The notes beneath the pieces are model-generated. The model did not search any database, was not told the origin of the DNA, and worked only from the letters and a program-made list of their open reading frames with translations. Positions 5,376 through 21,923 of a stretch of DNA of 64,000 nt are shown here, piece after piece. Origin of the DNA: Acidobacteriota bacterium (GTDB taxonomy: Bacteria; Acidobacteriota; Thermoanaerobaculia; Thermoanaerobaculales; Thermoanaerobaculaceae); assembly GCA_004298115.1 (NCBI GenBank), contig SCRJ01000140.1, positions 28,974-92,973 on the forward strand, read 5' to 3'. Each line of letters starts with the position of its first letter. Position 1 is the first letter of the stretch. Position numbers and translations under genes: made by a program.

Positions 5376-5804
5376 TCAGCCCTTGCGGGCCAGTTCGAGC
5401 GCTCTGGAGACGACGCGCACCAGATCGGCCGGTGCCACCGGCTTGTCCAGGAACTCCTGCACCGGAAGGTACTCGCCGGGACGATAGCTGCCGTCGCCGC
5501 TCTCGGGGTAGAAGCGGAGATCGGTCTTCGAGTGGATCGCGGAGACGATGACGATCGGCACCTCGCGGAAGTACGACCCGGGCATCTGCCTCAGCTTCCA
5601 GACGAAGTGAAACCCCTCGGTGGCGTCCGGCATCATCACGTCGAGCAGGATGAGGTCCGGCCTCTCGGCCTCCACCGTGGCGATACCCTCGGCGGGGCCG
5701 GCGGCGTCCACGACCCGATAGCCCTCCTTCTGCAGCAAAAGCCGCATCACGGCGACCAAGTCGCGGTCGTCGTCGACGATCAGGAGCTTGGCCTTCTCGC
5801 TCAT
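5376..5804 (-). CDS. Single-domain response regulator (receiver only)
   Basis: A 142-residue receiver with no output domain. The acidic pair is in LLIVDDDRDL, the phospho-acceptor Asp is in LILLDVMMPD, the conserved Ser is in VIVSAIHSKT, and the conserved Lys is in FLDKPVAP. Between the Ser strand and the Lys there is an insertion of about 20 residues (RFYPESGDGSYRPGEYLP), longer than in a CheY-type domain. Its ATG overlaps the stop of the hydrogenase small subunit gene by 4 bp, so it is part of the operon. Without a DNA-binding domain it must act through a protein partner or as a phosphate relay. Confidence 0.88.
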   Translation of the reverse strand: MSEKAKLLIVDDDRDLVAVMRLLLQKEGYRVVDAAGPAEGIATVEAERPDLILLDVMMPDATEGFHFVWKLRQMPGSYFREVPIVIVSAIHSKTDLRFYPESGDGSYRPGEYLPVQEFLDKPVAPADLVRVVSRALELARKG

Positions 5805-6313
5805 CCGTGCGCCTCTTTCTGCAGTATCCCACCCTGGGCAAGCTGGTCAAGCGACTCCTGCCTGAGGTGCTCCTCGGCCACCTGCTTCGGCACGAGGCCG
5901 AGCGCCAGCGCCACCCCGTAGAGGATCGCCTCGGGCCGGGGCGGGCAGCCGGGCACGTAGAAGTCGACCGGGATCACCTTGTCCGCGCCGCCGAGGACGT
6001 TGTAGGAGTCGAACCACGCGCCCCCGCCGCAGGCGCAGGAGCCGATCGCGAACACCAGCCGCGGGCGCGGCACCGCATCGAGGAGCCGCCCCAGCGCCGG
6101 CGCCACCTGTCGGGTGACCGGCCCGCTCACGACGACCGCGTCGGCGTGGCGCGGGGACCCGACGAGCTTGATGCCGAAGCGCTCCGCGTCGTAGTACGGG
6201 GTGAGGACGTTGATCACCTCGATGTCGCAGCCGTTGCAGGCACCGGCGTTGGCGTGGTAGACCCAGAGGGCCTTGCCGAACGCCTTCTTGCACGCCTTCT
6301 CGAGAAGCGCCAT
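5801..6313 (-). CDS. hyfI: Group 4 [NiFe] hydrogenase small subunit (NuoB/HyfI-like)
   Basis: A 170-residue protein from ATG 6313, homologous to complex I NuoB and HyfI/HycG. The four cysteines for the proximal [4Fe-4S] cluster are visible in ACNGCDIE, GSCACGGGAW and VPGCPPRPEAI. It is shorter than E. coli HyfI (about 250 residues), lacking a C-terminal extension. This subunit passes electrons to the NiFe site of the large subunit. It is the last structural gene; its stop overlaps the receiver gene start by 4 bp, and the preceding membrane subunit gene ends 2 bp before its start. Confidence 0.9.
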   Translation of the reverse strand: MALLEKACKKAFGKALWVYHANAGACNGCDIEVINVLTPYYDAERFGIKLVGSPRHADAVVVSGPVTRQVAPALGRLLDAVPRPRLVFAIGSCACGGGAWFDSYNVLGGADKVIPVDFYVPGCPPRPEAILYGVALALGLVPKQVAEEHLRQESLDQLAQGGILQKEAHG

Positions 6314-6315
6314 CC

Positions 6316-7830
6316 TCACCTCCCCAGCGTGGCCAGCACGTTCGCGGCACGGTCGAGCAACGGGAACGTCAGCCGCGGAAACACCCCGAGAACTACGCAT
6401 GCAACCGCCAGCGCCACCATCGGCCCCCACATCGTCGCGGGGACCTCGCGGGCCGCGGCCGCGGTAGCGGGGGCGTGCCCCCAGAACACCGTCCGCGCGG
6501 CGCGCAGCAGCACCACCATGGTGAGGAAGCCTGCGGCGATCGCGATCGCCAACGCCCACCACATGCCGGCCTTCGCCAGCGCGAGGTAGACGGTGAGCTT
6601 GCTCAGGAACCCGTTGAACGGCGGCAGCCCGGCGATCGCGAGCGCGCCGATCACGAAGCACGCGCTGGTGATCGGCATCCGGTCGCGCATCCCGGCCAGC
6701 TCGCTGATCCGCCGGGTGCCGGTGGCGTAGATCAACGCCCCGACGCACATGAACAGCAACGCCTTGATCAGCGCGTGGTTGAGCAGGTGGAACAACCCCC
6801 CATAGCAGCCCAGGTAGGTGCCCACCCCGATGCCGGCCACGACGTAGCCGATCTGGCTGACCGAGGAGTAGGCGAGCAGCCGCTTGAGGTCGTCCTGCGC
6901 CAGCGCCATGACGATCCCCAGCACCATCGTGAACACCCCGAGCGCGACCACGAACACCGCGAGCGTCGGCCAGCGCGGGTAAAAGATGCTCACCGTCCGC
7001 GCCAGCGCGTACACCGCCATCTTGATCATCACGCCCGACAGCAACACCGAGATCGGCGTCGGCGCCTCGGCGTGCGCGTCCGGCAGCCAGGGGTGGAACG
7101 GCGCGATCCCCGCCTTGGTTCCGAACCCCACGACCAGGAAAGCGACCGCGATCAGCGCCGTCGCGGGCGGGATCAGGTGCGCGACGCCGCGCACCTCGCT
7201 GATCAGCAGCGCCTGGCCGCCGGTGAGCCGGTTGGTCGCCGCCGCCGCCGCGTAGACAAGGACGCACCCGAAGAGCGCGAAGGTGATGCCGATCGTGAGG
7301 AGCATGAGGTACTTGTAGCCAGCCTCCAGGCCCCGCTTGTCCCAGTGGAAAGCGACCAAAAGGCCCGAGGTCAGCGTGGTCGCTTCGACTGCGACGTAGA
7401 GCATCACGATGTTGTTGGTGACGCACCCCCACACCATCGTCGCGATGAACCAGAGGAAGAGCCCGTAGAAGGTGGGCAGGCGCTGCGCCGCCGCCGCTCC
7501 GACCCGCGTCGGCAGGCCCGGCTGCTTGACGTAGCGCAGCGAGTACAACGCCGTCAGCGTGCCGACGATGCCGATGGCCAGAACCAGCAGGACCGAGAGC
7601 CCGTCGACGCGCAGCTCGTTGCCCCAGCCCGTGAGCACCGCACCGTCCACGACGCGTCGCGCCATCTCGAGGCCCAACAGCGTCACGCCGAGCGGCGCCG
7701 CGACGGCCAGGAATTGAGTGAGCCGGGCACCCAGCCACCGGCCGAAGAAGGCGAGCGCGCCGGCGGCGAGCGGCACCAGGAACGCCCACGCCGGCATGCT
7801 CGAAGCGATGGTCGCCGCCTGCTCGCTCAT
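6316..7830 (-). CDS. hyfF: Hydrogenase membrane subunit, antiporter-like (HyfF/NuoN-type)
   Basis: A 504-residue, about 14-helix protein of the NuoL/M/N-MrpA/D family. Key landmarks are LPDAHAEAPTPISVLLSGVMIKMAVYAL, which includes the helix-8 Lys, and the broken-helix region LLNHALIKALLFMCVGALIY. Members form the ion-translocating arm of complex I and of energy-conserving hydrogenases. This is the third such subunit in the operon, matching the HyfB/HyfD/HyfF set. It lies 2 bp before the small subunit gene. The HyfF label follows position and size (HyfF is about 526 residues); phylogeny would be needed to separate it from HyfD-like proteins. Confidence 0.85.
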   Translation of the reverse strand: MSEQAATIASSMPAWAFLVPLAAGALAFFGRWLGARLTQFLAVAAPLGVTLLGLEMARRVVDGAVLTGWGNELRVDGLSVLLVLAIGIVGTLTALYSLRYVKQPGLPTRVGAAAAQRLPTFYGLFLWFIATMVWGCVTNNIVMLYVAVEATTLTSGLLVAFHWDKRGLEAGYKYLMLLTIGITFALFGCVLVYAAAAATNRLTGGQALLISEVRGVAHLIPPATALIAVAFLVVGFGTKAGIAPFHPWLPDAHAEAPTPISVLLSGVMIKMAVYALARTVSIFYPRWPTLAVFVVALGVFTMVLGIVMALAQDDLKRLLAYSSVSQIGYVVAGIGVGTYLGCYGGLFHLLNHALIKALLFMCVGALIYATGTRRISELAGMRDRMPITSACFVIGALAIAGLPPFNGFLSKLTVYLALAKAGMWWALAIAIAAGFLTMVVLLRAARTVFWGHAPATAAAAREVPATMWGPMVALAVACVVLGVFPRLTFPLLDRAANVLATLGR

Positions 7831-7882
7831 GTTGCGCTCCCCACTCCTCCCAGCTCCGTCATGCGCCCTCGCCGAACCCGCC

Positions 7883-8557
7883 CTAGCGCTGCAGCTCGCG
7901 CAGAGCGAACGTGTCGGTCGTGCCGAACTCCTTGCGCACCCCGGCGATCACGTACAGCAACAGGAAGACCGTCACGACGACCTCGGTGGCGACACCGAAC
8001 AGCGTGGTCTCGGGCAGCTCGGGCGCCAGGCTCACCAGGCTCAGGTGCACGCCGTTCTCGAGCAGGCACAGGCCGATCACCGTCTTGGTCGCGTCGCGGC
8101 GCGTCAGCACGCAGTAAAGGCCGAGCGCGAAGACCGTCGAGGTCACCGCCAGGTTGGTGCGGAACACCCCTCCCTGTGCCAGCGTCGTCGGGGCGAACAG
8201 CGCGACGTGACCGTGGGTGAAGCGGTAGAAGCCGGTCATCAGCAGCGCCGCCACCACCACCGAGGGGCCGAAGCCGATCAGCGGCTTGATCTCGCGGTCC
8301 TCGCCATGGCCGATGAAGCGGAACAGGAACCACGGCGTCAGCACCGCCTTGGTGATCAGCGCCACCGCCGCCCACCAGTAGAGCGACGGGTTGACCGCCG
8401 CGAAGCTGGCGACCAGCCCGACGATCAGCAGCGCCTGCGCCGAGTACGCCATCGCCGCGAAGCGCAGGCGCCGCACCTCGACCGCGACGACCGAGGTGAT
8501 CACCACCACCATCGAGAGCGTCTGGATCAGCTCGCCGTTGAGCCCCGCGGTGCTCAC
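7883..8557 (-). CDS. hyfE: Hydrogenase-4 component E (NuoK-like membrane subunit)
   Basis: A 224-residue protein with about seven hydrophobic helices, matching HyfE (about 216 residues). The C-terminal half resembles NuoK/MrpC: it contains GLCLLENGVHLSLV, in which the buried Glu and nearby Asn correspond to the conserved NuoK helix. Its product should sit between the hydrogenase head and the antiporter-like subunits as part of the ion path. The start overlaps the stop of the ferredoxin-like subunit gene by 4 bp (8554-8557). A 52-bp gap separates it from the next gene. Confidence 0.87.
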   Translation of the reverse strand: MSTAGLNGELIQTLSMVVVITSVVAVEVRRLRFAAMAYSAQALLIVGLVASFAAVNPSLYWWAAVALITKAVLTPWFLFRFIGHGEDREIKPLIGFGPSVVVAALLMTGFYRFTHGHVALFAPTTLAQGGVFRTNLAVTSTVFALGLYCVLTRRDATKTVIGLCLLENGVHLSLVSLAPELPETTLFGVATEVVVTVFLLLYVIAGVRKEFGTTDTFALRELQR

Positions 8558-9003
8558 GATCTGCCTCCGCTACCGGTGCGAAACCCCGTCCTGTCCATGC
8601 GGTCGAGCGGCGTCGGCGGCACGTAGCAGCGGCCGCAGCGCTGGCACGGGCCCATGAACACCTCGAGCCGCATCACCATGTCGTCGCCGCGGTCGGTCGC
8701 GGTCTCGAACTGCTGGCTCATCGTGATCGCCTGCTCCGGGCACACCTCCTCGCAGCGGCCGCAGTACGTGCACCGCCGCCACTGGAACTCGAGCACGCGG
8801 AGGAGCTGGCCCGCATCGCGCACCTGGATGACGCCGGCCGGACACACGTTGGCGCAGCCGCCGCAGCCGAAGCAGCGGTCGGGATCCAGCGTGATCTTGC
8901 CGCGGAAGCCCGGAGCCGGATCGTGGGGTGCGAACGGATACGGCAGCGTCACCCGCCCCGCCTTGAAGCAGATCAGCGCCTCCCGCAGCTTGGCTGTCAG
9001 CAC
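8554..9003 (-). CDS. hyfH: Hydrogenase ferredoxin-like subunit (HyfH/NuoI-type)
   Basis: A 149-residue protein from GTG 9003, which is preceded by GGAGG seven bases upstream. Two [4Fe-4S] motifs, CFGCGGCANVCP and CTYCGRCEEVCP, match NuoI and HyfH, which bridge the electron-input module and the small subunit. A third Cys group, CQRCGRCY, near residue 130 is extra and could hold another metal or be structural. The final residues TGFRTGSGGRS look unstructured. It is placed directly after the NuoH-like gene, with 4-bp coupling to the hyfE-like gene. Confidence 0.9.
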   Translation of the reverse strand: MLTAKLREALICFKAGRVTLPYPFAPHDPAPGFRGKITLDPDRCFGCGGCANVCPAGVIQVRDAGQLLRVLEFQWRRCTYCGRCEEVCPEQAITMSQQFETATDRGDDMVMRLEVFMGPCQRCGRCYVPPTPLDRMDRTGFRTGSGGRS

Positions 9004-9014
9004 GATTTCGCCTC

Positions 9015-9932
9015 CTACATCCCGATCACCGCGAAGGCGAGGGCCGCCAGCGCAGAGAGCGCCACCCGCATGTAGTAGCCCATCGCCTGCTCGATCCGCA
9101 ACCGCGGGTTGACCGCGTCGACCACCCCCACGAGGACGAGCACGGCCAGCGCCTTGACCAGCGTCAGCACGGCGTCGAGCGGCACGACGCCGAGGTGCGG
9201 CCACGGCACGAACACCTGCACGAGCAGCAGAGCGAAGATCAACTGCTTGGCCCACATCGCCCAGCGGAAGACGGCCAACCGCGGGCCGCTCTGCTCGATC
9301 AGCGGTCCGCCCATGATCTCCTGGTCCGCCTCGGGGATGTCGAACGGCAGCTTGCCGGCCTGCGCCTGCAGCGCGAGGAACAGGGCGACGGCGGCGATCG
9401 CCATGCTGATGGTCGGGCCGTGCTCGGCGTTCCACGCGAGGATGCCGCCGACCGAAAGCGTCCCCGCCTTGACCGCGCCGACCACCAGCGCCACCGCCAG
9501 GACCGGCTCGACCGAGAGCAGCATCATCATCTCGCGCGAGCCGCCGACCGCCGCGTACGGACTGCCGCTGGCGAAGGCGGTGAGAATCAGAGCCACGGCG
9601 CTGGTCGCCGCCACGTAGATCAGCACGATGAGGTCCCCGGCGAACCCCAACGGCGGCGCGGCGCCGAGCGGCACCAGCGTCGCCAGCAGCAGCACCGAGC
9701 CCAACGTGAGGGCCGGTGCGAGCGCGTACGGCAACCCGCCGGTGGTGCGCAGGTCCTCCTTGCCGAGGAGCTTGAGCAGGTCGAGGTAGGGCTGGGTGAG
9801 CGGCGGCCCCTGACGCGAGTGGACGATCGCCTTGAGCTTGCGCATGACACCCTCGACCAGCGGCGAAAGCAGCAGCGCCACCGCCACGTTGAGCAGGGCG
9901 AGTGCGAGCGCGAGCAGCGGTGCGGTCGTCAT
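9015..9932 (-). CDS. hyfC: Hydrogenase membrane subunit, NuoH/HyfC-like
   Basis: A 305-residue protein with about eight transmembrane helices, starting at ATG 9932. The first cytoplasmic loop has KLKAIVHSRQGPPLTQPYLDLLKLLGKED, the group 4 form of the NuoH signature (R-Q-G-P-P, Y-x-D-x-x-K). The loop FDIPEADQEIMGGPLIEQSG carries the acidic residues that line the quinone-like or proton entry channel in relatives. It anchors the catalytic head to the membrane. The start overlaps the stop of the large subunit gene by 4 bp. Length is close to HyfC (about 320). Confidence 0.92.
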   Translation of the reverse strand: MTTAPLLALALALLNVAVALLLSPLVEGVMRKLKAIVHSRQGPPLTQPYLDLLKLLGKEDLRTTGGLPYALAPALTLGSVLLLATLVPLGAAPPLGFAGDLIVLIYVAATSAVALILTAFASGSPYAAVGGSREMMMLLSVEPVLAVALVVGAVKAGTLSVGGILAWNAEHGPTISMAIAAVALFLALQAQAGKLPFDIPEADQEIMGGPLIEQSGPRLAVFRWAMWAKQLIFALLLVQVFVPWPHLGVVPLDAVLTLVKALAVLVLVGVVDAVNPRLRIEQAMGYYMRVALSALAALAFAVIGM

Positions 9933-11629
9933 CGCCGTCCTCCCCGGAGCGTCAGTTCGCGCGACATCGCGAGCAGCTCCTGGCGTGAGTAGACCCGGCG
10001 CGAGTGCGTGCTCACGTCGATCGCCTCGACCCGCTCGGTGCAGGAGAAGCAGGGGTCCAGGCTGCCGAGCGTGATCGGCACGTCGGCGATCGCGGCGTGG
10101 TCGATCATCGCCGGCATCGCCTGCAGGTTCGGGTAGGTCGGCGCGCGCACCCGCCAGCGGTACGGGCGGTTGTCGCCGCCGGTCATGACGAAGTGCACGG
10201 CCTCGCCGCGCGGCGCCTCGACCACCGAGATGCCGATCCGGTCGCGCGGGATCTCGTCCTTGACCTCCGCCAGCACCTCGCCGGCGGGGAGCCTGGCCAG
10301 GCCCTCGCGCACCTGGCGGATCGAGTCGAGCAGCTCCTCGACGCGGACCAGCACGCGCGCCCAGGTGTCGCCCGCCTGCTGCGTGCACAGTCGCGGCGGC
10401 ACCTCATCGTAGGCGGCGTACGGGTGGTCGAGGCGCGCGTCGATCGGCACGCCGGAGCCGCGCGCCGGCGGCCCCACCACGCACACCTGTCGCGCCCAAT
10501 CGCCCGTCAACACCCCGACGTTCTTGGTCCGCGCCAGCAGCGTGGTGTCGCCGACGATCGCGTCGCGCACCGCCACCGACTCGCGCTCGACCTCGTCGAC
10601 CACCTTGAGGACCTTCGCGACGACAGTCGCCGGCAGGTCCCGGCGCAGGCCGCCGATCGTGTTCATGCCGTATGTCTTGCGGTTGCCGCTGATCTCCTCC
10701 GCGAGCCACATCACCGGCTCGCGCATCCGCCAGGTCTGCATCAGCACCGTGTCGAAGCCGAGGATGTGGCCCGCGATCCCCAGCCACAGCAGGTGCGAGT
10801 GGACGCGCTCGAGCTCGAGCATGATCGAACGGATGTAGCGGGCGCGCCGCGGCACCTCGATGCCGGCGGCCTTCTCCACCGCCTGGCAATAGGCGGTCGA
10901 GTGGATGAACCCACAGATGCCGCAGATGCGCTCGGCAAGGTACGGGATCTCGTTGTAGGTGAGCGTGCTCTCGCCGAGCTTTTCGATGCCGCGGTGGTTG
11001 TAGAAGCCGCGATAGTCGCAGCCGACGACCGTTTCGCCCTCGACGAACAGCCGCCAGTACGAGGGCTCCTCGAGCACTGGGAAGAAGGGCCCGATGGGCA
11101 GCACGCTCGCGCCCTCAGGCGGCTGTTTCGGCACCGGCGCCACGCCCTCGGCCGCGGGCGGGCGGTAGTCGTAGGGGAAGTCGCGGCGCAGCGGGAAGAG
11201 GCCTTCGGGCCAGTCGTCGGCGAGCAACAGGCGGCGCGGGTCGGGGTGCCCGTCCGGCGTCACCCCGACCGCGTCGCGGCACTCCCGCTCCGCCCAGTTG
11301 GCGCCCGGGACCAGCGCCGCGATCGAGTCGACGTGCGGGTCATCGGGACTCACCGCGCACTCGAGCACTACGAACAGGTGCTCGCCGTCGAGCGAGAAGA
11401 GGTAGAGGACGCGATAGTCCGCCGACAGCGGTCGGGCGTCGATCCCCACCGTGATCAGGAAGCGCGCCCGCAGCCGCAGCAGCTCCTCGGTCGCGCTGCG
11501 GAGTTCCTCGGGGGCTACCACGAGACGGAGGGTGTCGGGTGGCCCCTGTGACGCGGCCCGCAGGCCCGCGCCGATCTTCCGGGCCACCGCCTCGTTCACC
11601 TGCGCCGCGACGCCCAAAACGCTCGCCAT
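9929..11629 (-). CDS. hyfG: Group 4 [NiFe] hydrogenase catalytic large subunit (HyfG-like, NuoC-NuoD fusion)
   Basis: A 566-residue fusion of a NuoC-like domain (about 1-165) and a hydrogenase large-subunit/NuoD domain. All four Ni ligands are present: L1 motif ERICGICGFIHS (Cys236, Cys239) and L2 motif DPCFSCTER (Cys527, Cys530). These are missing in true NuoD, so this is a hydrogenase. After Arg533 there is a tail of about 33 residues of the kind removed by a maturation endopeptidase; a HycI-type protease gene lies upstream in the same operon. It belongs to the Hyc/Hyf-related branch by motif; the exact group 4 subtype needs a tree. Confidence 0.94.
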   Translation of the reverse strand: MASVLGVAAQVNEAVARKIGAGLRAASQGPPDTLRLVVAPEELRSATEELLRLRARFLITVGIDARPLSADYRVLYLFSLDGEHLFVVLECAVSPDDPHVDSIAALVPGANWAERECRDAVGVTPDGHPDPRRLLLADDWPEGLFPLRRDFPYDYRPPAAEGVAPVPKQPPEGASVLPIGPFFPVLEEPSYWRLFVEGETVVGCDYRGFYNHRGIEKLGESTLTYNEIPYLAERICGICGFIHSTAYCQAVEKAAGIEVPRRARYIRSIMLELERVHSHLLWLGIAGHILGFDTVLMQTWRMREPVMWLAEEISGNRKTYGMNTIGGLRRDLPATVVAKVLKVVDEVERESVAVRDAIVGDTTLLARTKNVGVLTGDWARQVCVVGPPARGSGVPIDARLDHPYAAYDEVPPRLCTQQAGDTWARVLVRVEELLDSIRQVREGLARLPAGEVLAEVKDEIPRDRIGISVVEAPRGEAVHFVMTGGDNRPYRWRVRAPTYPNLQAMPAMIDHAAIADVPITLGSLDPCFSCTERVEAIDVSTHSRRVYSRQELLAMSRELTLRGGRR

Positions 11630-11639
11630 CGTCCGCTCC

Positions 11640-13646
11640 TCACCCGACCAGCCCGAGCACGATCGCCACCACGGCGACCGCGCCGACGACGATCCAAAGG
11701 AGGTACACCTGCGGCACGCCGACGTGGCTGCGGCTCACCGCGCCCGCCGCCCGCTCGACCAGCCGGGCGGCCGGCCGGTAGGCCCACGCGTCGACGTCGA
11801 AGGCACGCCGCAACCCGCCGGGGAACGCCGGCACCCGCCAGCGGATGCGCGGGTAGATCCCTGCGAAGGCGTGTTTGAACGGCAGGTAGAAGCTCGACGC
11901 CGCGTAGCGCACGGTGGCCGCGGCGTGCTCCTCGCCCCCGGTCCACACCGCGACCTCGCGCCGCCCGGCGCCGCCGGCGCGCTGCAGGCCGTAGGCGACG
12001 AACGCGAGCACGACCATCCCGCCCGCCACCACCAGCGGCGACCACAGCGCGAGCGCGGCCCCGCCGCCCGTGACCGCCAGGCCCCACGGTCCGCCGAGAA
12101 GCTCGGAGGCGCTCGGCACCGCGATCGGGACGCTGGCCGCCGCCGCATCGCGGATGAAACGCAGCGGCCAGAACGGAAGCACGCCGAGCAGCACGCAGAG
12201 CGCGGCCAGGACGACCTGCGCCGCCGCCATGGTGGCCGGCACCTCGCTCACCCGGCGCTCCGGGTTCGGCTGCCCGAGGAAGACGGCTCCGAGAACCTTC
12301 AGGAACGACGCCAGGGTCGCGAGCGAGATGAACATCGCCACCAGGCCGAGGATCAGGAAGAGCGGCTGCGCCATCCCCGCCAGCAGACAGGCGGCGACGA
12401 TCAGCCACTTGCTGGCGAACCCGTTGAGGGGCGGCACGCCGGCGATCGCCAGCGACGCCACCGTTGACGACCCCGCCGTCAGCGGCATGGCGGCGGCCAG
12501 CCCGCCGAGCCGGTTCATGTCGCGCTCGCCGGTGCGGTACAGCACGGCGCCGGCGCCGAGGAACAGGCACGCCTTGAAGCAGGCGTGGTTGGCGGCGTGG
12601 AACAGCGCGCCCACGATCGCGAGCGCGCCCAGGGTCGGCGCCGTCCGCAAGCAGGCGATGCCGACCCCGAGACCGAGGCAGATGTAGCCGATCTGGCCGA
12701 TGGTGTGGAACGCCATCAGCCGCTTGCTGTCGGTCTGGCGCAACGCCGTCAGCGTGCCGACGAACAGGGATGCCGTACCCGCCAGCGCGATCGCGATCCC
12801 CCACCCGACCGCCGCGGCCGAGGCCGGCAGGAGCGCGCCGAAGAAACGCACCAGTCCGTAGATCCCCAGCTTGACCAGGGCGCCCGAGAGCGCCGCGCTC
12901 ATTCCCGACGGCGCCACCGGATGGGCGTCGGGCAGCCAGTCGCCCATCGGCAGCACCCCGGCCTTGGTGGCGAAGCCGATGAAGAGGAGGCCGAGCACGG
13001 TGTGCGCCAGCAACGGCCGCGTGGCGAGCAGCTGCGCGAGCGCCGCCAGCAGATCGCCGAAGTGGAACGAGCCGCACTGGCGCCAGAGCACGAGCGCCGC
13101 CACGACCATGCACAGCGTCGCCGCGTGGGTGATCACGAAGTACTTCCACCCGGCGCGTTGGCTGGCGGCGTTCTCCCGCTCGAAGGTGACCAGGAAGAAC
13201 GAGGTCAGCGTCATGAGCTCCCAGCACACCAGGAAGAAGAGGAAGTCGGAGACGACCAGCACGCCGACGATCGCCGCGAAGAACACCAGCAGGATCGGAT
13301 AGAACTTCGCCAGCGTGTTGCCCGCGAAGTGCGTCATGTAGTCGACCGAGTAGAGCGTGGCGACCACGGCGATCGTCGCGACGATCGCCAGGAAGAACGC
13401 CGACAGCGGGTCGACCACGACCGACAGCCGCGCCCCCAGGTCCGGCAGCGCGAGCACGGTCGCCTCGCCCTCGGCCCGCGATGAGAACGCCCGCACCACG
13501 ACGACCCAGATGGCCGCTGCCGCCGCCGCCACGAACGCCGTGCTCACCCACCCAGCGAGCCTGGCCCGGCGCGCCAGCGCCAGGCTCGCGGCGGCGCCCG
13601 CCAGCAGGACCGCGATCGCGACGGCGAGCAGTTCGGGGGTGGTCAT
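11640..13646 (-). CDS. hyfB: Hydrogenase membrane subunit, long antiporter-like (HyfB-type)
   Basis: A 668-residue, about 16-helix NuoL/M-family protein, very close in length to HyfB (672). It shows LPMGDWLPDAHPVAPSGMSAALSGALVKLGIYGL (helix 7-8 region with the key Lys) and ALFHAANHACFKACLFLGAGAVLY (discontinuous helix 12). A C-terminal extension of about 200 residues follows the 14-helix core, containing a charged segment (about residues 560-600) and a final hydrophobic helix. It should form part of the ion-pumping arm. It lies 10 bp before the large subunit gene and 4 bp after the preceding antiporter-like gene. Confidence 0.88.
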   Translation of the reverse strand: MTTPELLAVAIAVLLAGAAASLALARRARLAGWVSTAFVAAAAAAIWVVVVRAFSSRAEGEATVLALPDLGARLSVVVDPLSAFFLAIVATIAVVATLYSVDYMTHFAGNTLAKFYPILLVFFAAIVGVLVVSDFLFFLVCWELMTLTSFFLVTFERENAASQRAGWKYFVITHAATLCMVVAALVLWRQCGSFHFGDLLAALAQLLATRPLLAHTVLGLLFIGFATKAGVLPMGDWLPDAHPVAPSGMSAALSGALVKLGIYGLVRFFGALLPASAAAVGWGIAIALAGTASLFVGTLTALRQTDSKRLMAFHTIGQIGYICLGLGVGIACLRTAPTLGALAIVGALFHAANHACFKACLFLGAGAVLYRTGERDMNRLGGLAAAMPLTAGSSTVASLAIAGVPPLNGFASKWLIVAACLLAGMAQPLFLILGLVAMFISLATLASFLKVLGAVFLGQPNPERRVSEVPATMAAAQVVLAALCVLLGVLPFWPLRFIRDAAAASVPIAVPSASELLGGPWGLAVTGGGAALALWSPLVVAGGMVVLAFVAYGLQRAGGAGRREVAVWTGGEEHAAATVRYAASSFYLPFKHAFAGIYPRIRWRVPAFPGGLRRAFDVDAWAYRPAARLVERAAGAVSRSHVGVPQVYLLWIVVGAVAVVAIVLGLVG

Positions 13647-13650
13647 GGCC

Positions 13651-15114
13651 TCACCTTCCGATCCACTGCACGAGCGGGATGCCGAACGCCGGAGCGACCA
13701 GGCAGCCGAGCATCAGCACGACGAGCGCGGCCGACATCGCCGGCGGCGGGTCGGAGTTGACGCACGCCACCGGCGTCGTCTCGCCGAGGAACACCTTCTG
13801 CGCCACGTGCAGCAGCCAGGCGAACGAGATCAGGCTCTCGAAGAGCACCAGCGTCACCACGACCGGCCCGATCGCGCCGGCGAGCCGCATCGCGCCCGCG
13901 ACGATCATGAACTTGCTCCAGAAGCTGCCGAACGGGGGCACGCCGGCGACCGCCAGCACGCCGACGAAGAACGCCGTGGCCGTGAGCGGCATCGTGCGCG
14001 CCACACCGGCGAGGGCGGAGATGCTGCGCGAGCCGGTGACGTACGCCACCGCCCCGACGCAGAGGAACAGCGCCGCCTTGCCGAAACCGTGGCAGAGGAT
14101 GTGCAGCGCGGCGCCGCGCAGGGCGGTAACCGATCCGAGCGCCCCGAGCGCGACGCCGAGCATCACGTACCCGAGGTTGGCGATCGTCGAGTACGCGAGC
14201 AGGCGCTTGAGGTCGTCCTGGATGAAGTAGTAGGAAAGCGCGACGAATATCGTCACGAGCGCCATCGCCCCGGCGAGCATCGCCACCGCGGGCGGCACCT
14301 CCGGGTTCGCGACGACGACGCGCGCCATCAGGTAGACGCCCGCCTTGACCATGGCCGCGGCGTGCAGGTACGCGGAGATCGGCGTCGGCGCTGCCATCGC
14401 GTCGGGCAGCCAGGTGTGGAACGGCACCTGGGCGGCTTTCGCCCAGGCGGCGATCAGCAGCATCACGAGCACCGCGGCGCGCCAGTCGCCGGGGAGCTGC
14501 CCCAGCGCCGCGAACTCGAACGAACCGGTCTTGACGAACAGCACGCAGATGGCGCCGAGGAAGAACAGACCGCCGGCGCCGGTCATCACCAGCGCCTTGA
14601 ACCCGGCGGCGAGGCTCCTCGGGGTTCCGTAGTAGGAGATCAGCGCCCACGAGCAAACCGTCGTCATCTCCCAGAAGATGAACAGCTGGAGGAAGTTCGG
14701 CGAGATCGCCACGCCCACCATGCTGGCCAGGAAGAGGAGCAGCCAGAAGTAGTAGCGGCCCTGCCCCGCAGGGCCCTCCGGGTGTTCCCGATTGGCGGCG
14801 GAGAGGTACCGGGTCGAGTACAACACGGTGAGGAAGCCGATCACCGTCACCACCAGCAGCAGGATGCAACCGAGAGGGTCAAGCAGGACGCCGGGCACCG
14901 GTGCGGACGCAGTCCCGGCGAGGAACGGCAAGTCGCCGAGCGTGACCCGATAGCTCACACCGTACCCGGCGAGACAGCACCACACCGCGAGAACCGCCAC
15001 CACTGCCGCCGCCGTTGCCGCAACCCAGCGGGCGAACGCTCCCTTCACCACCGCTGCGACCGCCGCCGCCAGCGCCGGCAGGAGGACCATCAGCACGAGC
15101 ATCCAGCTCAGCAT
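13651..15114 (-). CDS. hyfD: Hydrogenase membrane subunit, antiporter-like (HyfD/MrpD-type)
   Basis: A 487-residue, about 14-helix member of the NuoL/M/N family; HyfD is about 479 residues. Landmarks are VPFHTWLPDAMAAPTPISAYLHAAAMVKAGVYL, with the conserved Lys, and ILCHGFGKAALFLCVGAVAYVTGSRSI. Together with the other two antiporter-like subunits it suggests three potential ion channels. The start overlaps the protease gene by 7 bp. Of the three it looks the most NuoM/MrpD-like by motif, but assignment to HyfD rather than a Mrp-type subunit is tentative. Confidence 0.82.
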   Translation of the reverse strand: MLSWMLVLMVLLPALAAAVAAVVKGAFARWVAATAAAVVAVLAVWCCLAGYGVSYRVTLGDLPFLAGTASAPVPGVLLDPLGCILLLVVTVIGFLTVLYSTRYLSAANREHPEGPAGQGRYYFWLLLFLASMVGVAISPNFLQLFIFWEMTTVCSWALISYYGTPRSLAAGFKALVMTGAGGLFFLGAICVLFVKTGSFEFAALGQLPGDWRAAVLVMLLIAAWAKAAQVPFHTWLPDAMAAPTPISAYLHAAAMVKAGVYLMARVVVANPEVPPAVAMLAGAMALVTIFVALSYYFIQDDLKRLLAYSTIANLGYVMLGVALGALGSVTALRGAALHILCHGFGKAALFLCVGAVAYVTGSRSISALAGVARTMPLTATAFFVGVLAVAGVPPFGSFWSKFMIVAGAMRLAGAIGPVVVTLVLFESLISFAWLLHVAQKVFLGETTPVACVNSDPPPAMSAALVVLMLGCLVAPAFGIPLVQWIGR

Positions 15115-15626
15115 GACGCCGACCTCTCCGCCCCCGAAGGGCCACAGGGCGCGACGCGCCCCGACGGCAGCACGTCGATCAGCAGCTCGGCCAGGCTCGC
15201 CGCGCTCGCGGCGACCTCTGGGCTCGGCGGCATCGCGAGCTCGGTGTGCCCGGGTTGCACCGCCAGCACCGCGACGCGCGCGCCGGTCTCCCGCCGCACG
15301 ATCTCCATCAGCATGGACAGCGGCATGCGATGGGTCGACGCCATGTACGACGACAGCTCGCGGGCGGAAAGCAGCGCCGCGGTGCCCGGCGCCTCGCCGA
15401 GGTCGATCGCGTCGAAGAACAGCACGGCGTCCGGCGAGGCCGTGATGGCGGCGAGGACGAAATTCTCCGGCACGTCCTCGGCGTCGATGACGAGCGCGCG
15501 CACCCGTCCGGCGAGGAGGCGGGCCAGCAGCGAGCCGAAGGCGTCGTCGCCGCGCACCGGGTTCCCGATGCCGACGATCGTGACGGCGCCAGAGAGAAGC
15601 TCCGCGAGCTCCGCGCGCAGGCTCAC
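15108..15626 (-). CDS. hycI: Hydrogenase maturation endopeptidase (HycI family)
   Basis: A 172-residue protease from GTG 15626; the GTGA overlap with the preceding flavoprotein stop decides this start. The family signature VGIGNPVRGDDAFGSLLARLL carries a Ni-sensing Asp. FFDAIDLGEAPGTAALL and STHRMPLSMLMEIV match HycI, where the second Asp and the His complete the metal site. The enzyme clips the C-terminal tail of the large subunit after NiFe insertion. That substrate is encoded three genes downstream and has a matching tail. No hyp maturation genes occur in the window, so the rest of the assembly machinery is elsewhere. Confidence 0.88.
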   Translation of the reverse strand: MSLRAELAELLSGAVTIVGIGNPVRGDDAFGSLLARLLAGRVRALVIDAEDVPENFVLAAITASPDAVLFFDAIDLGEAPGTAALLSARELSSYMASTHRMPLSMLMEIVRRETGARVAVLAVQPGHTELAMPPSPEVAASAASLAELLIDVLPSGRVAPCGPSGAERSASC

Positions 15627-16444
15627 TCCGTCATCTCCCGGATCTGCCGGTAGGTGAAGACCGGACCGTCGCGGCAGACGTAGCGGTGGCCGATGCAGCA
15701 GTGGTTGCACTTGCCGACCCCGCACTGCATCATCCGCTCCAGCGTCGAGATCACCGAGTCGGGGCTGAACCCCCGCATCAGCAGCTCCTGGACGACGAAC
15801 TTGATCATGATCGGCGGCCCGCAGACGTACGCCAGCGTGGTGGCCGGCTTGAGCTCGGTCCTGTCGAAGAGGACCGGCACCATGCCGACGTTGCCGGTCC
15901 AGCCGGTTTCGCCGCGATCGACGGTGACGTGGATCTCGACGTCCCCCCGCCTCGCCCACTCCTCGAGCTCGTCCTTGTAGACCAGGTCGGTGGGCGTGCG
16001 GGCGCCGTAGAGGATCGTCACCTTACCGAAGCGGTCGCGCTCGTCGAGCACGTTCCAGATCAGCCCGCGCAGCGGCGGCAGGCCGATGCCGCCGCCGATG
16101 AACAGCAGGTCCTTCGCCGTGGCCGCGGCCACGTCGAAACCGTTGCCGCACGGCCCTCGCACGCCGACCTCGTCGCCGGCCGCCAGGGTGTGCATCGCGT
16201 CCGTCAGCACGCCCGTGCGGCGCACCGTGGTCTGGATGCACTCCGTCCGTGTCGGGCTCGAGGCGAAGCAGAACGGGGCCTCGCCGACGCCGAACACCGA
16301 CAGCTCCATGAACTGCCCCGGTGAGAACGTGAAGTCGCGCGGCTCGCCGCCCTGGCGGAGAACGAGGTCGAACGTCTTTGTGTCCGGCGTCTCGTCGCGG
16401 ACCGCGGCGATCCGCGCCACCCGCGGCAGGAACAGGTTATCCAT
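15623..16444 (-). CDS. FAD/NAD(P)-binding electron-transfer subunit (sulfhydrogenase gamma/HydG-like)
   Basis: A 273-residue ferredoxin-NADP-reductase-fold protein. The N-terminal barrel has FSPGQFMELSVFGVG, the flavin-binding stretch. DLLFIGGGIGLPPLRGLI is the NAD(P)-binding loop. The C-terminus carries a [2Fe-2S] motif, QCGVGKCNHCCIG followed by a fourth Cys in YVCRDGPVF, as in dihydroorotate dehydrogenase PyrK, AsrB and the gamma subunit of Pyrococcus sulfhydrogenase. It can exchange electrons between NAD(P)H and Fe-S partners. It overlaps the beta-like gene by 8 bp and couples to the protease gene by 4 bp. The specificity for NADH or NADPH is not evident. Confidence 0.87.
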   Translation of the reverse strand: MDNLFLPRVARIAAVRDETPDTKTFDLVLRQGGEPRDFTFSPGQFMELSVFGVGEAPFCFASSPTRTECIQTTVRRTGVLTDAMHTLAAGDEVGVRGPCGNGFDVAAATAKDLLFIGGGIGLPPLRGLIWNVLDERDRFGKVTILYGARTPTDLVYKDELEEWARRGDVEIHVTVDRGETGWTGNVGMVPVLFDRTELKPATTLAYVCGPPIMIKFVVQELLMRGFSPDSVISTLERMMQCGVGKCNHCCIGHRYVCRDGPVFTYRQIREMTE

Positions 16445-17489
16445 GCCACTCTCCCTTGCGGATCGCGGCCACGACGGCCGGCATGTCGCTGGTCCCCAGG
16501 CAGACCTTCACGCAGCGCCCGCAGCCGACGCAGCCCACCGCGCCGTCCCGGCGGAAGTACTGGGCGCTCACCTTGTGGAAGAAGCGCCGCTTCACCCGCT
16601 CCCGGTGCGCCTCGCGGGGGTTGTGGCCGGACGCCTCGAGCGTGAAGGCGCGGAACTGGCAGGAGTCCCAGGTGCGGCAGCGGACCCAGCGCCCGTCGCG
16701 CGCCTGGTCCTTCACCGAGAAGCAGTAGCAGGTGGGGCAGACGAAGTTGCAGGCGCCGCACTCGAGGCACGTGTCCGCGATCTCGTCCCACAGCTCCGCG
16801 CTCACCCGGCCGACCGACACGCGCCGCATCGCCGAGGCGAAGTGGCACGTTTCCGGGCCGAACGCCCGCTTCGCCGCCTCCTCCAGCTCGTGCCGCAGCG
16901 CCACCTCGTCGGCCCGCCCCGTCCGGAACAGGTCGGCCGACGGCTCGAGGAGACGGCCGCCCTTCTCGCTGCCCACCTCGGCGAGGAAACGGTCGCCGAG
17001 ATCGGTGAGCTGGACGTCGAACGAATCGGCCAGGAACGGCCCGGCGTCGCAGCAGATGCAGAAGCCGAACGCACAGGGCGCGACGCACGCCACGCTGACC
17101 GAGGTCACCGCGGCGGCGCGCCGAAGGTACGCCGCGTCGGCGAGGTCGTACTCGTGCACCCGCGTGAGGAACTCGATCCCCTTGACGTCGCAACTGCGCA
17201 ACCCGAAGAGCACCCGCGGCGTCTCGTCGTAGACCGGCTCGACCACGAAGCCGCCGGGACCCCTCCCGATCGAGACGAGAGGGTCCGTCTGCGGCAGCAC
17301 CGCCTGCTTCGGCGGGAGCAGCGGGATGTCCCCGCCCCACTGCACCTCGAGGGGAGAGGAGATCCTGCGTAAGATGATGTCGCCGGCCCGGGCAGACGTC
17401 GGCGCGAGGACCTCGGCCCTCTCCATGAGGCGGCCGATCCACTCGCGCATCCTCTCCTTGCCGATCGTGCGAGCCGCGTTTGAGTGCAT
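16437..17489 (-). CDS. 4Fe-4S dicluster electron-transfer subunit (sulfhydrogenase beta/AsrA-like)
   Basis: A 350-residue protein of the HydB/AsrA type. It has an N-terminal region with several Cys (FGLRSCDVKGIEFL, CVAPCAFGFCICCDAG), then two ferredoxin-like motifs: CLECGACNFVCPTCYC near residue 240 and CVGCGRCVKVCLG near residue 325. The second is followed by TSDMP rather than a usual Pro. Such subunits carry electrons between a flavoprotein gamma subunit and a catalytic partner. Here that partner is either the hydrogenase or the FdhF-like subunit, whose gene ends 19 bp upstream. The beta-gamma order is as in sulfhydrogenase and anaerobic sulfite reductase operons. Confidence 0.86.
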   Translation of the reverse strand: MHSNAARTIGKERMREWIGRLMERAEVLAPTSARAGDIILRRISSPLEVQWGGDIPLLPPKQAVLPQTDPLVSIGRGPGGFVVEPVYDETPRVLFGLRSCDVKGIEFLTRVHEYDLADAAYLRRAAAVTSVSVACVAPCAFGFCICCDAGPFLADSFDVQLTDLGDRFLAEVGSEKGGRLLEPSADLFRTGRADEVALRHELEEAAKRAFGPETCHFASAMRRVSVGRVSAELWDEIADTCLECGACNFVCPTCYCFSVKDQARDGRWVRCRTWDSCQFRAFTLEASGHNPREAHRERVKRRFFHKVSAQYFRRDGAVGCVGCGRCVKVCLGTSDMPAVVAAIRKGEWHG

Positions 17490-17508
17490 TCGCGCTCCCG
17501 AAGGTCCT

Positions 17509-19419
17509 TCAGGCCCGTTCGACGGCCACGCTGGCCACGCTGCGCCCGCCCATCGCCGGCGCGAGCCCGTCGCGGAGCGCGAACGGCACCACGACGACGC
17601 CCGCCGCCAGATCGGCGCGCATCAGCGCCGGCGCCACCGCCTCCCCGCCCGCCGACTTGAGCCGCACCGGCCAGCCCTGGCGCACTCCGAGCCGCTCCAT
17701 CGCCTCCTTGGACAGCTCCACGAACCCACCCGGGAACAGCTTGCGCTGCGCGACGGATTCGCGGCACAGGGTCGGGGAGTAGCGCACGAGCGGATCACGT
17801 CCCCAGTCGAACACGCCGTTCCACAACGCCACGAACGGCGCAGGTTCGACCGGCTCGCACGGCGTCAGCGGACCCAGCGAACGGCGCCGGAGGCCATTGC
17901 GCTCTCCTTTCGGCGCCACCCCGACCTGGTCGAGCTCCCGCCAGCGCGGGGCGGCGTCGGGAGGCACCGCCCGGGCGATCTCCCGCCGCACCCCTTCGGC
18001 GCTTTCGTACTCCGCGGCCGGCCCGAGGCGCCCGAGCATCGCCCCGAGCACGGCCCACCCGGGCCGCGCCATCCCGGGCGGGCCGACGGCCGCGCGGACC
18101 CGCCGCAAGCGCCCGTCCAGCCCGGTGACGGTGCCGTCGTTCTCGGCGAAGCTGGCGATCGGCAGCACCACGGTGGCGAGCTCGAGCGCCCCCGTCGCGA
18201 ACGCGTCCAGCAGGACCACGCACTCCATCCGCCCGAGCGCCTCGCGCGCGAGCGCTCCGGCCGGCAACACCACGCTCGGGTCCTCCGCCACGATCACCGC
18301 GCCCCGCGCCGCGGACAGCATCGCGGTCGCGTCCAGCCCCGTCTCACGTGCGGGCGGCACGCCCCAGACGCCCTCGAGACGGCTGGCGGCCTTCTCGTCG
18401 GACAACGGCGCGAACCCCGGCAGGAAGGCCGACGACGCGCCGACCTCGCAGGCGCCCCGCAGGTTGCCGCGCGCCGGCAGCATCAGCAAGGGGCTCCCGT
18501 CCCGATCCAGGTGGCCGGTCGCCGCCGCCAACGTGGCAACGTCGCCGGCGAGCCGCCGCAGGTCGGTCGCGTCCCCCACCAGCGGGGCGACCACGATGCC
18601 GGCCCGCTGCGCCTGTGCGTACCACCCCGCGGCGCGCGCCACCGCCTTGCTCACCTCGACCCCGGCAAGGCTGCGGCGCAGCTCGTCGAAGGTTTCGCCG
18701 GCGGCGACGATCGTCGCGGTGTCGAGCCGCCCGGTGGCGAGCGCCGCCGCCGCAAGCTCGAACGTCACCGCGCGCTCGCGCCCGGGTGGGGCGGCGATCG
18801 CCAACGTCGCAAGCCTCGTCATCTGTGAGGCGACGGCGCCGATCGTCACCAGCCGGCACCCCGCCTTCCGGGCGCGGACGATCGCGCCCGCGACCTGCGG
18901 GTGGGTCACGGCCACGTCGCCCTCGACCAGGACGATCACGTCGCACCCCTCGAGGTCGGCCACCCCGCCGCTCCCCGCATGCCGCTCGGTGACGTCGTGG
19001 AGGCCGTCGAGCAGCGGCTGATAGGCCGGCGACAGGCACGTGCCGACGTGCGGGGTCTGCAGCGCTCCTCGCGCCATCCGCACCGCGAGGTAGTTCTCCT
19101 CGTTGGTGGCGCGCGCGGATCCCAGCACGCCGATCGTCCGTCCGGCGCGCCGCATTGCGGCGAGGCTCCCGGCGGCCGCGTCGAGCGCCGTCTCCCAGGA
19201 GACGGGACGCATCCGTCCGTCGTGGCGCAGCAACGGCTCGGTGAGGCGTTCGCCCCACGCCGGCGCTTCGTGGCTCGCCCAACCGCGGGCGCACAGCCTC
19301 CCCCGCGACACCGGGTCGCTCGCGCTGGGGATGACGCCTTCCGTCCTTCCCTCTCTGGCAAGCAAGTAGAAACCGCAACCGCAGGGGCAAAACGGGCAGG
19401 TGGTGAGGACAGGGTCCAC
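17509..19419 (-). CDS. Formate-dehydrogenase-like molybdopterin-fold subunit lacking the Mo ligand
   Basis: A 636-residue protein from GTG 19419, with GGAGG eight bases upstream, and the first gene of the hydrogenase operon. The N-terminal Fe-S site is Cys8-x2-Cys11-x3-Cys15-x27-Cys43. Residues 100-117 (GSARATNEENYLAVRMAR) match FdhF closely. In an ungapped alignment to E. coli FdhF, recalled from memory, the Sec140-His141 pair falls on Ala132-Tyr133 (codons GCC TAT at 19026-19021). The catalytic Arg (Arg333 in FdhF) appears kept in PARGNLRGACEVG, with two residues missing beside it. The Lys that links cluster and cofactor is Arg45. It may be a degenerate, NuoG-like relay or use another substrate. 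Confidence 0.82.
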   Translation of the reverse strand: MDPVLTTCPFCPCGCGFYLLAREGRTEGVIPSASDPVSRGRLCARGWASHEAPAWGERLTEPLLRHDGRMRPVSWETALDAAAGSLAAMRRAGRTIGVLGSARATNEENYLAVRMARGALQTPHVGTCLSPAYQPLLDGLHDVTERHAGSGGVADLEGCDVIVLVEGDVAVTHPQVAGAIVRARKAGCRLVTIGAVASQMTRLATLAIAAPPGRERAVTFELAAAALATGRLDTATIVAAGETFDELRRSLAGVEVSKAVARAAGWYAQAQRAGIVVAPLVGDATDLRRLAGDVATLAAATGHLDRDGSPLLMLPARGNLRGACEVGASSAFLPGFAPLSDEKAASRLEGVWGVPPARETGLDATAMLSAARGAVIVAEDPSVVLPAGALAREALGRMECVVLLDAFATGALELATVVLPIASFAENDGTVTGLDGRLRRVRAAVGPPGMARPGWAVLGAMLGRLGPAAEYESAEGVRREIARAVPPDAAPRWRELDQVGVAPKGERNGLRRRSLGPLTPCEPVEPAPFVALWNGVFDWGRDPLVRYSPTLCRESVAQRKLFPGGFVELSKEAMERLGVRQGWPVRLKSAGGEAVAPALMRADLAAGVVVVPFALRDGLAPAMGGRSVASVAVERA

Positions 19420-21723: not shown

Positions 21724-21726
21724 ATC

Positions 21727-21813
21727 CACCTCCTGTAGGTGCCGGCGTCTCCAGAACGCCGGGGCTCGGCATGGCGTACCGAGCTGCTCCGCCGGGTAAG
21801 GCTGAACCGGCGG
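21727..21813 (-). promoter_or_regulatory. Structured 5' leader with four adjacent hairpins
   Basis: Directly upstream of the GTPase ATG the transcript can form four perfect stems: 21789-21813 (7 bp, CCGCCGG/CCGGCGG), 21764-21784 (6 bp, GCTCGG/CCGAGC), 21742-21762 (7 bp, CCGGCGT/ACGCCGG) and 21727-21741 (5 bp, CACCT/AGGTG). The last one pairs the ribosome-binding site AGGAGGTG. This looks like a translation-control leader. I do not recognise a known riboswitch, and GC-rich DNA forms stems easily. Confidence 0.45.
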
Positions 21814-21836
21814 CTTAACTCCGTTATCCTTGGTCA

Positions 21837-21850
21837 GTGGTCCGTGGTCC
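21837..21850. repeat. Heptamer repeat, two GTGGTCC units
   Basis: Two tandem GTGGTCC units upstream of the GTPase leader. The containing stretch 21833-21849 is the perfect inverse complement of 20381-20397 (17 bp). Confidence 0.65.
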
Positions 21851-21902
21851 GACACCGACGACCCGCCCGCGGGAGACACTCCCCGCTCGTTGAGCGGACA
21901 AC

Positions 21903-21923
21903 GGTCCACGGTCCACGGTCCAC
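21903..21923. repeat. Heptamer repeat, three GGTCCAC units
   Basis: Three exact tandem GGTCCAC units, just downstream of the guaA stop. The unit differs by one base from the inverse of GTGGTCC found 53 bp away, so the arrays look related. Confidence 0.7.

Follow-up and report, generated by a model that had tools for sequence, protein, structure and literature searches.

A group 4 [NiFe] hydrogenase operon of Acidobacteriota with an NAD(P)H-type module and an FdhF-like protein that lacks the formate active-site residues

The window analysed here is a stretch of 64,000 nucleotides on contig C199 of genome G000 (96.4% complete). It carries a hydrogenase operon of twelve minus-strand genes between 5801 and 19419, whose closest relative among the loci found lies in the metagenome-assembled genome (MAG) palsa_272 and whose nearest relatives are Acidobacteriota. 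Our sequence analysis supports the identification of the locus as a group 4 [NiFe] hydrogenase of the membrane-bound type, with complete nickel ligands and an NAD(P)H-type module. The product of the first gene, here called FdhX, resembles the formate dehydrogenase FdhF, but is very unlikely to act as a formate dehydrogenase (FDH).

The genes of the operon and its hydrogenase core

An earlier note on this DNA had claimed twelve consecutive minus-strand genes, and all twelve are matched by hidden Markov models (HMMs), the end coordinate being the GTG start codon of FdhX at 19419, preceded by AGGGGAAGG. From 19419 to 5801 the order is FdhX, HydB, HydG, HycI, HyfD, HyfB, HyfG, HyfC, HyfH, HyfE, HyfF, HyfI. 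The tight packing that the note described holds for overlaps of 4, 4, 4, 7 and 8 bp between neighbouring open reading frames and for gaps of 2, 4, 10, 11 and 19 bp, but not for the 52 bp before HyfF. The locus extends past HyfI: a response regulator overlaps it at ATGA and is followed, after 48 bp, by a histidine kinase, neither of which the note had included.

17509..19419, minus strand: FdhX, FdhF-fold protein of 636 amino acids (Pfam and NCBIfam matches, alignments, start, residue positions, open frame)
16437..17489, minus strand: HydB-like protein (sulfhydrogenase beta / AsrA family) with two four-Cys motifs (profile and PDB matches, motif reading)
15623..16444, minus strand: HydG-like protein (sulfhydrogenase gamma) with FAD/NAD domains and DHODB-type [2Fe-2S] cysteines (profile and PDB matches, motif reading)
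15108..15626, minus strand: HycI-type hydrogenase maturation protease (profile match; GTG start)
13651..15114, minus strand: HyfD-like antiporter subunit (NCBIfam, 496 bits, above the cut-off of 430)
11640..13646, minus strand: HyfB-like antiporter subunit (top NCBIfam match, under its cut-off)
9929..11629, minus strand: HyfG, [NiFe] large subunit fused to a 30-kDa domain, L1 and L2 ligand motifs intact (profile and PDB matches, alignment)
9015..9932, minus strand: HyfC/NuoH-like membrane subunit (profile matches; start read from the sequence)
8554..9003, minus strand: HyfH/NuoI-like subunit with two four-Cys motifs (profile matches, motif reading)
7883..8557, minus strand: HyfE-like (NuoK-related) membrane subunit (profile matches)
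6316..7830, minus strand: HyfF-like antiporter subunit (NCBIfam match)
5801..6313, minus strand: HyfI, hydrogenase small subunit (NuoB-like), with proximal-cluster cysteines (profile matches, motif reading)
5376..5804, minus strand: single-domain response regulator, its start overlapping the HyfI stop (ATGA) (profile matches; found after HyfI in many relatives)
3849..5327, minus strand: histidine kinase with a PilS-like membrane region and a GGVENPF motif (profile matches)

HyfG carries the motifs RICGICGFIH and DPCFSCTER, and the alignment places all four Ni/Fe cysteines, as the earlier note had read them. Its top PDB match is HycE (421 bits), and its family is Complex1_49kDa/HycE-like, the kind with membrane partners and not the soluble large subunit of group 3. 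The NuoB-, NuoH-, NuoI- and antiporter-like partners by which group 4 is recognised are all encoded in the operon. HyfI has candidate proximal-cluster cysteines, and each of HydB and HyfH a pair of four-Cys motifs. In the antiporter-like proteins, lysine stretches were read by eye in HyfB (TKAGVLPMGDWLPDAH), HyfF (TKAGIAPFHPWLPDAH) and HyfD (AKAAQVPFHTWLPDAM). Such lysines serve proton transfer in antiporter-like subunits.

The putative NAD(P)H arm is formed by HydB and HydG. Pyrococcus furiosus sulfhydrogenase I (SHI; 9nez) is the only PDB entry matched by HydB and the one matched best by HydG, which bears out the sulfhydrogenase beta- and gamma-like subunits of the earlier note. Both are sulfhydrogenase homologues that keep their cluster cysteines, with scores under the NCBIfam equivalog cut-offs. 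Ferredoxin or another low-potential carrier might instead be the donor or acceptor, either by itself or in a flavin-based bifurcation with NAD(P)H, HydB-HydG being only one branch. The small energy yield of NAD(P)H to H2 speaks for such a carrier, as does the HydDB description of ferredoxin as the partner of most group 4 classes (PMC5037454). HydG, however, resembles the NADPH enzyme SHI in having a single FAD/NAD domain pair and a DHODB-type cluster, and no second flavoprotein appears among the profile matches of the operon. We therefore regard such a carrier as unlikely. The same matches include no NuoE or NuoF and no HycB/HyfA iron-sulfur linker gene in the window's operon. Across the ten operon genes compared, dN/dS is 0.08-0.49.

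Two related operon types were found. Type I has the gene set of the window and occurs in Acidobacteriota and one Armatimonadota genome (L020, placed by the HyfG tree). Type II, the smaller sister, reads FdhX-HydB-HydG-(HycI)-HyfB-HyfG-HyfC-HyfH-HyfI, has its own dead FdhX and was found in 11 genomes, all of the phylum (L106-L116). These 11 loci have one antiporter subunit and gave no match to a separate HyfD, HyfE or HyfF, and HycI was not seen in four of them (L110, L112, L113, L115).

The active site of FdhX

Residues are numbered as in E. coli FdhF, and the quartet comprises Lys44, Sec/Cys140, His141 and Arg333. In the window, Ala replaces Sec/Cys140 (19024-19026), Tyr replaces the adjoining His141 and Arg replaces Lys44 (19285-19287). 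All four quartet residues are missing in the window and in 12 of the 12 loci L008-L019; L020 keeps Lys44 alone. The alignment had E. coli FdhF and the C-terminal part of NuoG as references and did not include L001-L007, L103, L124 and L125. A phmmer alignment with FdhF of the hydrogen-dependent CO2 reductase (7qv7_S) sets VDHCARLCHAPT gap-free opposite VGTCLSPAYQPL, and LCIKG opposite LCARG. Figures for FdhX homologues cover the 120 matches listed of 219 proteins (one further protein listing covers 120 of 5635). Among these 120, Cys or Sec140 and Arg333 occur in none, His141 in two and Lys44 in three, and place 140 is variously Ile, Thr, Leu, Ala, Val, Ser, Pro, Gly, Met or Arg. The four [4Fe-4S] cysteines are complete in 113, the remaining seven being gapped there. 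As a control in the same search, the quartet is kept in 64 of 65 further loci (L021-L085, the exception being L072); the matched frame has an in-frame TGA in 49 of the 64 and no stop there in 15.

Two further explanations were rejected. A hidden selenocysteine is ruled out because the window gene contains no stop codon, although SelB and tRNA-Sec matches above their cut-offs are present in the host genome. A decaying pseudogene is rejected because the matched frames have no stop in any of the 13 loci L008-L020 or the 11 type-II loci L106-L116, and because dN/dS is 0.32 for FdhX.

The loss reaches beyond the quartet. In 65 intact sequences (the 64 loci and E. coli FdhF), 109 columns are conserved at 95% or more. 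The type-I rows have all lost 33 of these, including Asp202, Pro203, Asp478, Thr579, Gly580 and Arg581; the count leaves out the short L017 and L018. Some of the residues just named are contacts to molybdopterin guanine dinucleotide. Every type-I row keeps 42 of the 109, and the fold is still FDH-like; E. coli NuoG, a known dead relative in which the alignment shows the quartet lost as well, keeps 40. The predicted structure of FdhX likewise retains the FDH fold, the structure alignment having taken in 43 of the 120 homologues. In a tree that included 22 of the 65 intact sequences, supports are 58/60 for FdhX of type I, 69/97 for FdhX of type II and 100/99 for the intact FDHs.

With this fold and 42 conserved columns, FdhX might be a working molybdoenzyme for a substrate other than formate, with no protein ligand to the metal, which feeds or drains the hydrogenase along with NAD(P)H. 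The Ala at the ligand place in the window can be likened to arsenite oxidase, which has Ala there. However, place 140 varies among the homologues, and Asp202, Pro203, Asp478 and Arg581 are gone from every type-I row, which makes this alternative improbable.

The operon has previously been read as a formate hydrogenlyase (FHL), in which FdhX would oxidise formate and HyfG would make H2. Hausmann et al. published the operon of the MAG SbA1 as "formate hydrogenlyase (fdhF, hyf operon)", and a 2022 peat study took an FDH within a 'group 4b' cluster of Terracidiphilus MAGs to suggest formate coupling (PMC6018796 and PMC9599518, respectively). The HydDB paper lists group 4f as 'formate-coupled (putative)' with an undetermined role (PMC5037454). 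Besides these authors' annotation, the predicted fold and the best-matching model of FdhX, TIGR01591 (Fdh-alpha), speak for an FHL. The score against that model is 269.8 bits, however, below the cut-off of 666.25, and the quartet is missing in the window and in L008-L019. Since FdhX lacks the catalytic residues, formate as electron donor, which the earlier note had left open, is very unlikely; the FdhF fold that the note saw stands, but the identity as an FHL is rejected on account of the lost active site, and this reading is hardly credible. For SbA1 itself, locus L015 is SBA1_Contig_8 and has the same operon as the window type. Its FdhX is P0101, "formate dehydrogenase H" of Ca. Sulfotelmatobacter kueseliae (100% over 636 residues), with Arg, Ile, Cys and Leu at 44, 140, 141 and 333. 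The sequence thus contradicts the published formate function for this one MAG.

Other FDHs can exist in such cells, the FdhX of this operon being the dead one. The host genome has no FDH above the model cut-off, five stretches being matched, FdhX among them, and no pyruvate formate-lyase (PFL) above its cut-off. An FDH above the cut-off occurs in 3 of 22 other operon-bearing genomes. SbA1 (G402) has five sub-threshold FDH matches, and one of these lies in a frame of 1099 residues that contains an in-frame TGA, in keeping with the fdo-type FDH listed by the SbA1 authors (PMC6018796).

FDH-fold proteins of complex I gave two side observations. In L063:9347-12034, from a Candidatus Methylomirabilis MAG, a complex I operon encodes a NuoG whose FDH-fold part has all four quartet residues, with an in-frame TGA at 140; this is possibly a formate-active complex I, to judge by these residues. 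A similar NuoG in L072:4842-7484 has lost the quartet fully.

Distribution and linkage of the modules

The earlier note did not recall this gene set as a whole. The neighbourhood search shows that it recurs in Acidobacteriota and that the SbA1 case had been published as an FHL. The type-I order is identical in 10 of 10 long loci (L008, L010-L016, L019, L020), to the end of each stretch, and HyfI is present in all 11 genomes of these ten and L009. A chance neighbourhood of twelve genes is ruled out by this synteny. One FdhX homologue, P0074, carries a Gemmatimonadota name. A HyfG match at E <= 1e-100 occurs in 16 of the 297 genomes of the phylum sampled, the window's included, which makes for a patchy distribution.

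The HyfG tree groups type I at 100/97, two ungrouped rows falling within it, and type II at 94/93; the two types join at 94/90 and are together sister to four FHL sequences (96/96). The tree carries warnings on long branches and letter make-up, above all for L121, and because its reference groups are few, no HydDB label is claimed.

The linkage of FdhX to HydB and HydG follows the state of the active site. An FdhF-like protein is flanked by HydB and HydG in 23 loci, namely 11 of type I, 11 of type II and L118. None of these 23 proteins has an intact quartet, and Cys/Sec140 and Arg333 are missing in all. Conversely, none of the 64 quartet loci has a HydB or HydG match above 60 bits within 3-4 kb, a search in which weaker homologues could be missed and some contigs are short. 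A match to E. coli HyfA above 50 bits is absent from all 11 type-I and all 11 type-II loci, and L118 has one of 77 bits; a linker of this HycB/HyfA type, expected of an FHL, is thus lacking in 22 of the 23. In the FHL operons L027 and L062, by contrast, the quartet is intact, a HyfA-like linker is present and HydB and HydG are absent.

Matches of HydB and HydG to AsrA and AsrB, which belong to anaerobic sulfite reductase, were obtained as well. Together with FdhX the two might accordingly make up a soluble enzyme of their own, such as the arm of a sulfur or sulfite reductase, that happens to share the operon. The profile matches of the operon include no catalytic subunit of sulfite reductase, however, and the three genes stay with HyfG in both operon types despite their differing antiporter sets. 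We consider a separate enzyme very improbable.

L118 is mixed, with HydB, HydG, an FdhF-like protein that matches poorly (90 bits) and the HyfA match. The locus (L118:345-15395, G012:C21) is a third arrangement, with the hydrogenase and antiporter genes in another order. Immediately upstream of FdhX in L010, the opposite strand (L010:5642-9307) encodes a further HydG (48%) and HydB (33%) and gives a weak large-subunit match; these genes are perhaps a soluble group 3b hydrogenase.

Downstream of HyfI, the regulator is found in six of nine type-I relatives examined (L171, L172, L176-L179), five of which also have the kinase; neither was matched in L173, L174 and L175, nor in L105. In type II, 10 of 11 loci (all but L106) have the regulator no more than ~110 bp after HyfI, with kinase genes behind it. 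The window kinase and four of the five kinase-bearing relatives have GGxENPF. We take GGxxNPF to be a quinone motif of RegB; a literature search for a paper in support found none.

A side observation concerns HyfG of L105 (G113:C251; also L086 and L147). Its L1 motif reads RICGI-TGA-GFIHS: TGA stands in frame in place of the second L1 cysteine, the frame being open otherwise, and this HyfG is a candidate for selenocysteine as a bridging NiFe ligand. The TGA is followed by a hairpin (-14.3 kcal/mol, z -1.84; 10 of 200 shuffled sequences did as well), and SelB and tRNA-Sec are both matched above their cut-offs in this genome. To our knowledge, selenocysteine in [NiFeSe] enzymes occurs in L2 only. 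Against the candidate, the DNA pattern occurs in 4 of 396 genomes, the other three cases not being hydrogenases. In addition, HyfG is matched in 4 of 15 genomes of the family and the TGA is in this one only, so a sequencing error or a broken gene is possible.

HypD is encoded in the host genome too, as is a further [NiFe] hydrogenase large subunit of full length (on C164). The host also carries two more NuoB/NuoCD clusters, of which one shares the contig of the window, and a Hyf-like large subunit that lacks the L1 and L2 motifs; the loci are L121 (G000:C158), L120 (G000:C74) and L122 (G000:C199:1-19999). At 20407-21909 the window encodes a 500-aa protein adjoining GuaA, with 96% identity in L008, no NCBIfam match and a sub-threshold cobW P-loop match only.

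Proposed electron transfer and relation to known systems

Taken together, the genes point to a membrane-type group 4 hydrogenase that probably exchanges electrons between NAD(P)H and H+/H2 and would link this exchange to the transport of ions, FdhX being predicted to serve as an iron-sulfur relay or scaffold, in the manner of NuoG in complex I, and not as an FDH. All subunits would assemble as one complex. Electrons from NAD(P)H would enter the FAD and [2Fe-2S] cluster of HydG, move through the two [4Fe-4S] clusters of HydB and the one [4Fe-4S] cluster of FdhX, and reach the NiFe site by way of HyfH and HyfI. By analogy with complex I, the antiporter arm may couple this flow to ions. The enzyme would be reversible, either NADH or NADPH might be its nucleotide, and the linked two-component pair may control it. 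The NAD(P)H:H+ oxidoreductase of the earlier note is retained in part, as a group 4 hydrogenase with an NAD(P)H-type module, while its ion pumping, its direction and its choice between NADH and NADPH are conjectural.

The potential of H2 is -414 mV at 1 bar and about -270 mV at 1 Pa, and that of NADPH is -320 to -370 mV. On these values, H2 evolution would be downhill only at low H2, and NADPH formation from scarce H2 would need an ion gradient. Given the small gap, two directions are equally plausible: H2 evolution, and gradient-driven reduction of NAD(P)+ by H2 at low H2.

Several points weigh against this assignment. Pumping would have little free energy to draw on in the step from NAD(P)H to H2, NAD(P) binding is judged by family matches only, and it is operon conservation that suggests the membership of FdhX and HydB-HydG in the hydrogenase. 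FdhX itself keeps an FDH-like fold, and the absent protein ligand leaves some molybdenum chemistry possible. Cys stands at the neighbouring place 141 in 64 of the 120 matches listed, so a one-residue register error would matter; in addition, His is aligned at 141 in 5 of 11 type-II proteins, and Lys44 is kept in L020 and L118.

The operon shares parts with several known systems. E. coli Hyf and Hyc (hydrogenase-4 and -3, FHL, HydDB 4a) have the HyfB-I subunits and HycI in common with it, but the window operon lacks the HyfA/HycB linker, its FdhF has no active site, and HydB and HydG are added. The latter two are shared with P. furiosus SHI (HydDB 3b), but accompany here a Hyf-type large subunit and membrane antiporters instead of a soluble group 3 hydrogenase. 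Like complex I, the operon combines a pyridine-nucleotide arm, antiporter-like subunits and a dead FDH-fold subunit that keeps one four-Cys cluster site. Unlike complex I, it has the NiFe ligands and uses HydB-HydG as flavin module instead of NuoE-NuoF, and a quinone role is not expected. In Thermococcus litoralis FDH-MHY (fdhAB-mhyCDEFGH), likewise, an FDH-like gene and a group 4 hydrogenase share one operon, which in the available part of its description has eight genes, a HycB-like FdhB and no HydB or HydG (PMC2432063). No description of this gene set as an NAD(P)H-linked complex was found in the open literature, most subscription papers lying outside the search. The parts are known, and their combination as such a complex is unrecognised in the open literature searched.

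These results may change how H2 metabolism is modelled from genomes. Formate would be removed from the H2 metabolism inferred for peat and soil Acidobacteriota with this operon, and an NAD(P)H link would take its place. For annotation, Lys44, Sec/Cys140, His141 and Arg333 should be inspected before a hyf-linked FdhF is named an FHL. FdhX also offers a natural case, outside complex I, of an FDH fold kept under selection without formate chemistry, which bears on the origin of NuoG. A bolder account, which we put forward tentatively and with more doubt than confidence, is that an FHL ancestor gained a sulfhydrogenase-type NAD(P)H module before its FDH died into a cluster-bearing relay like NuoG, a parallel invention of the input arm of complex I. 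H2 enzymes of this class, linked to NAD(P)H and driven by ions, would then be widespread in soil Acidobacteriota, where the ion gradient may run them backwards so that they make NAD(P)H from scarce H2.

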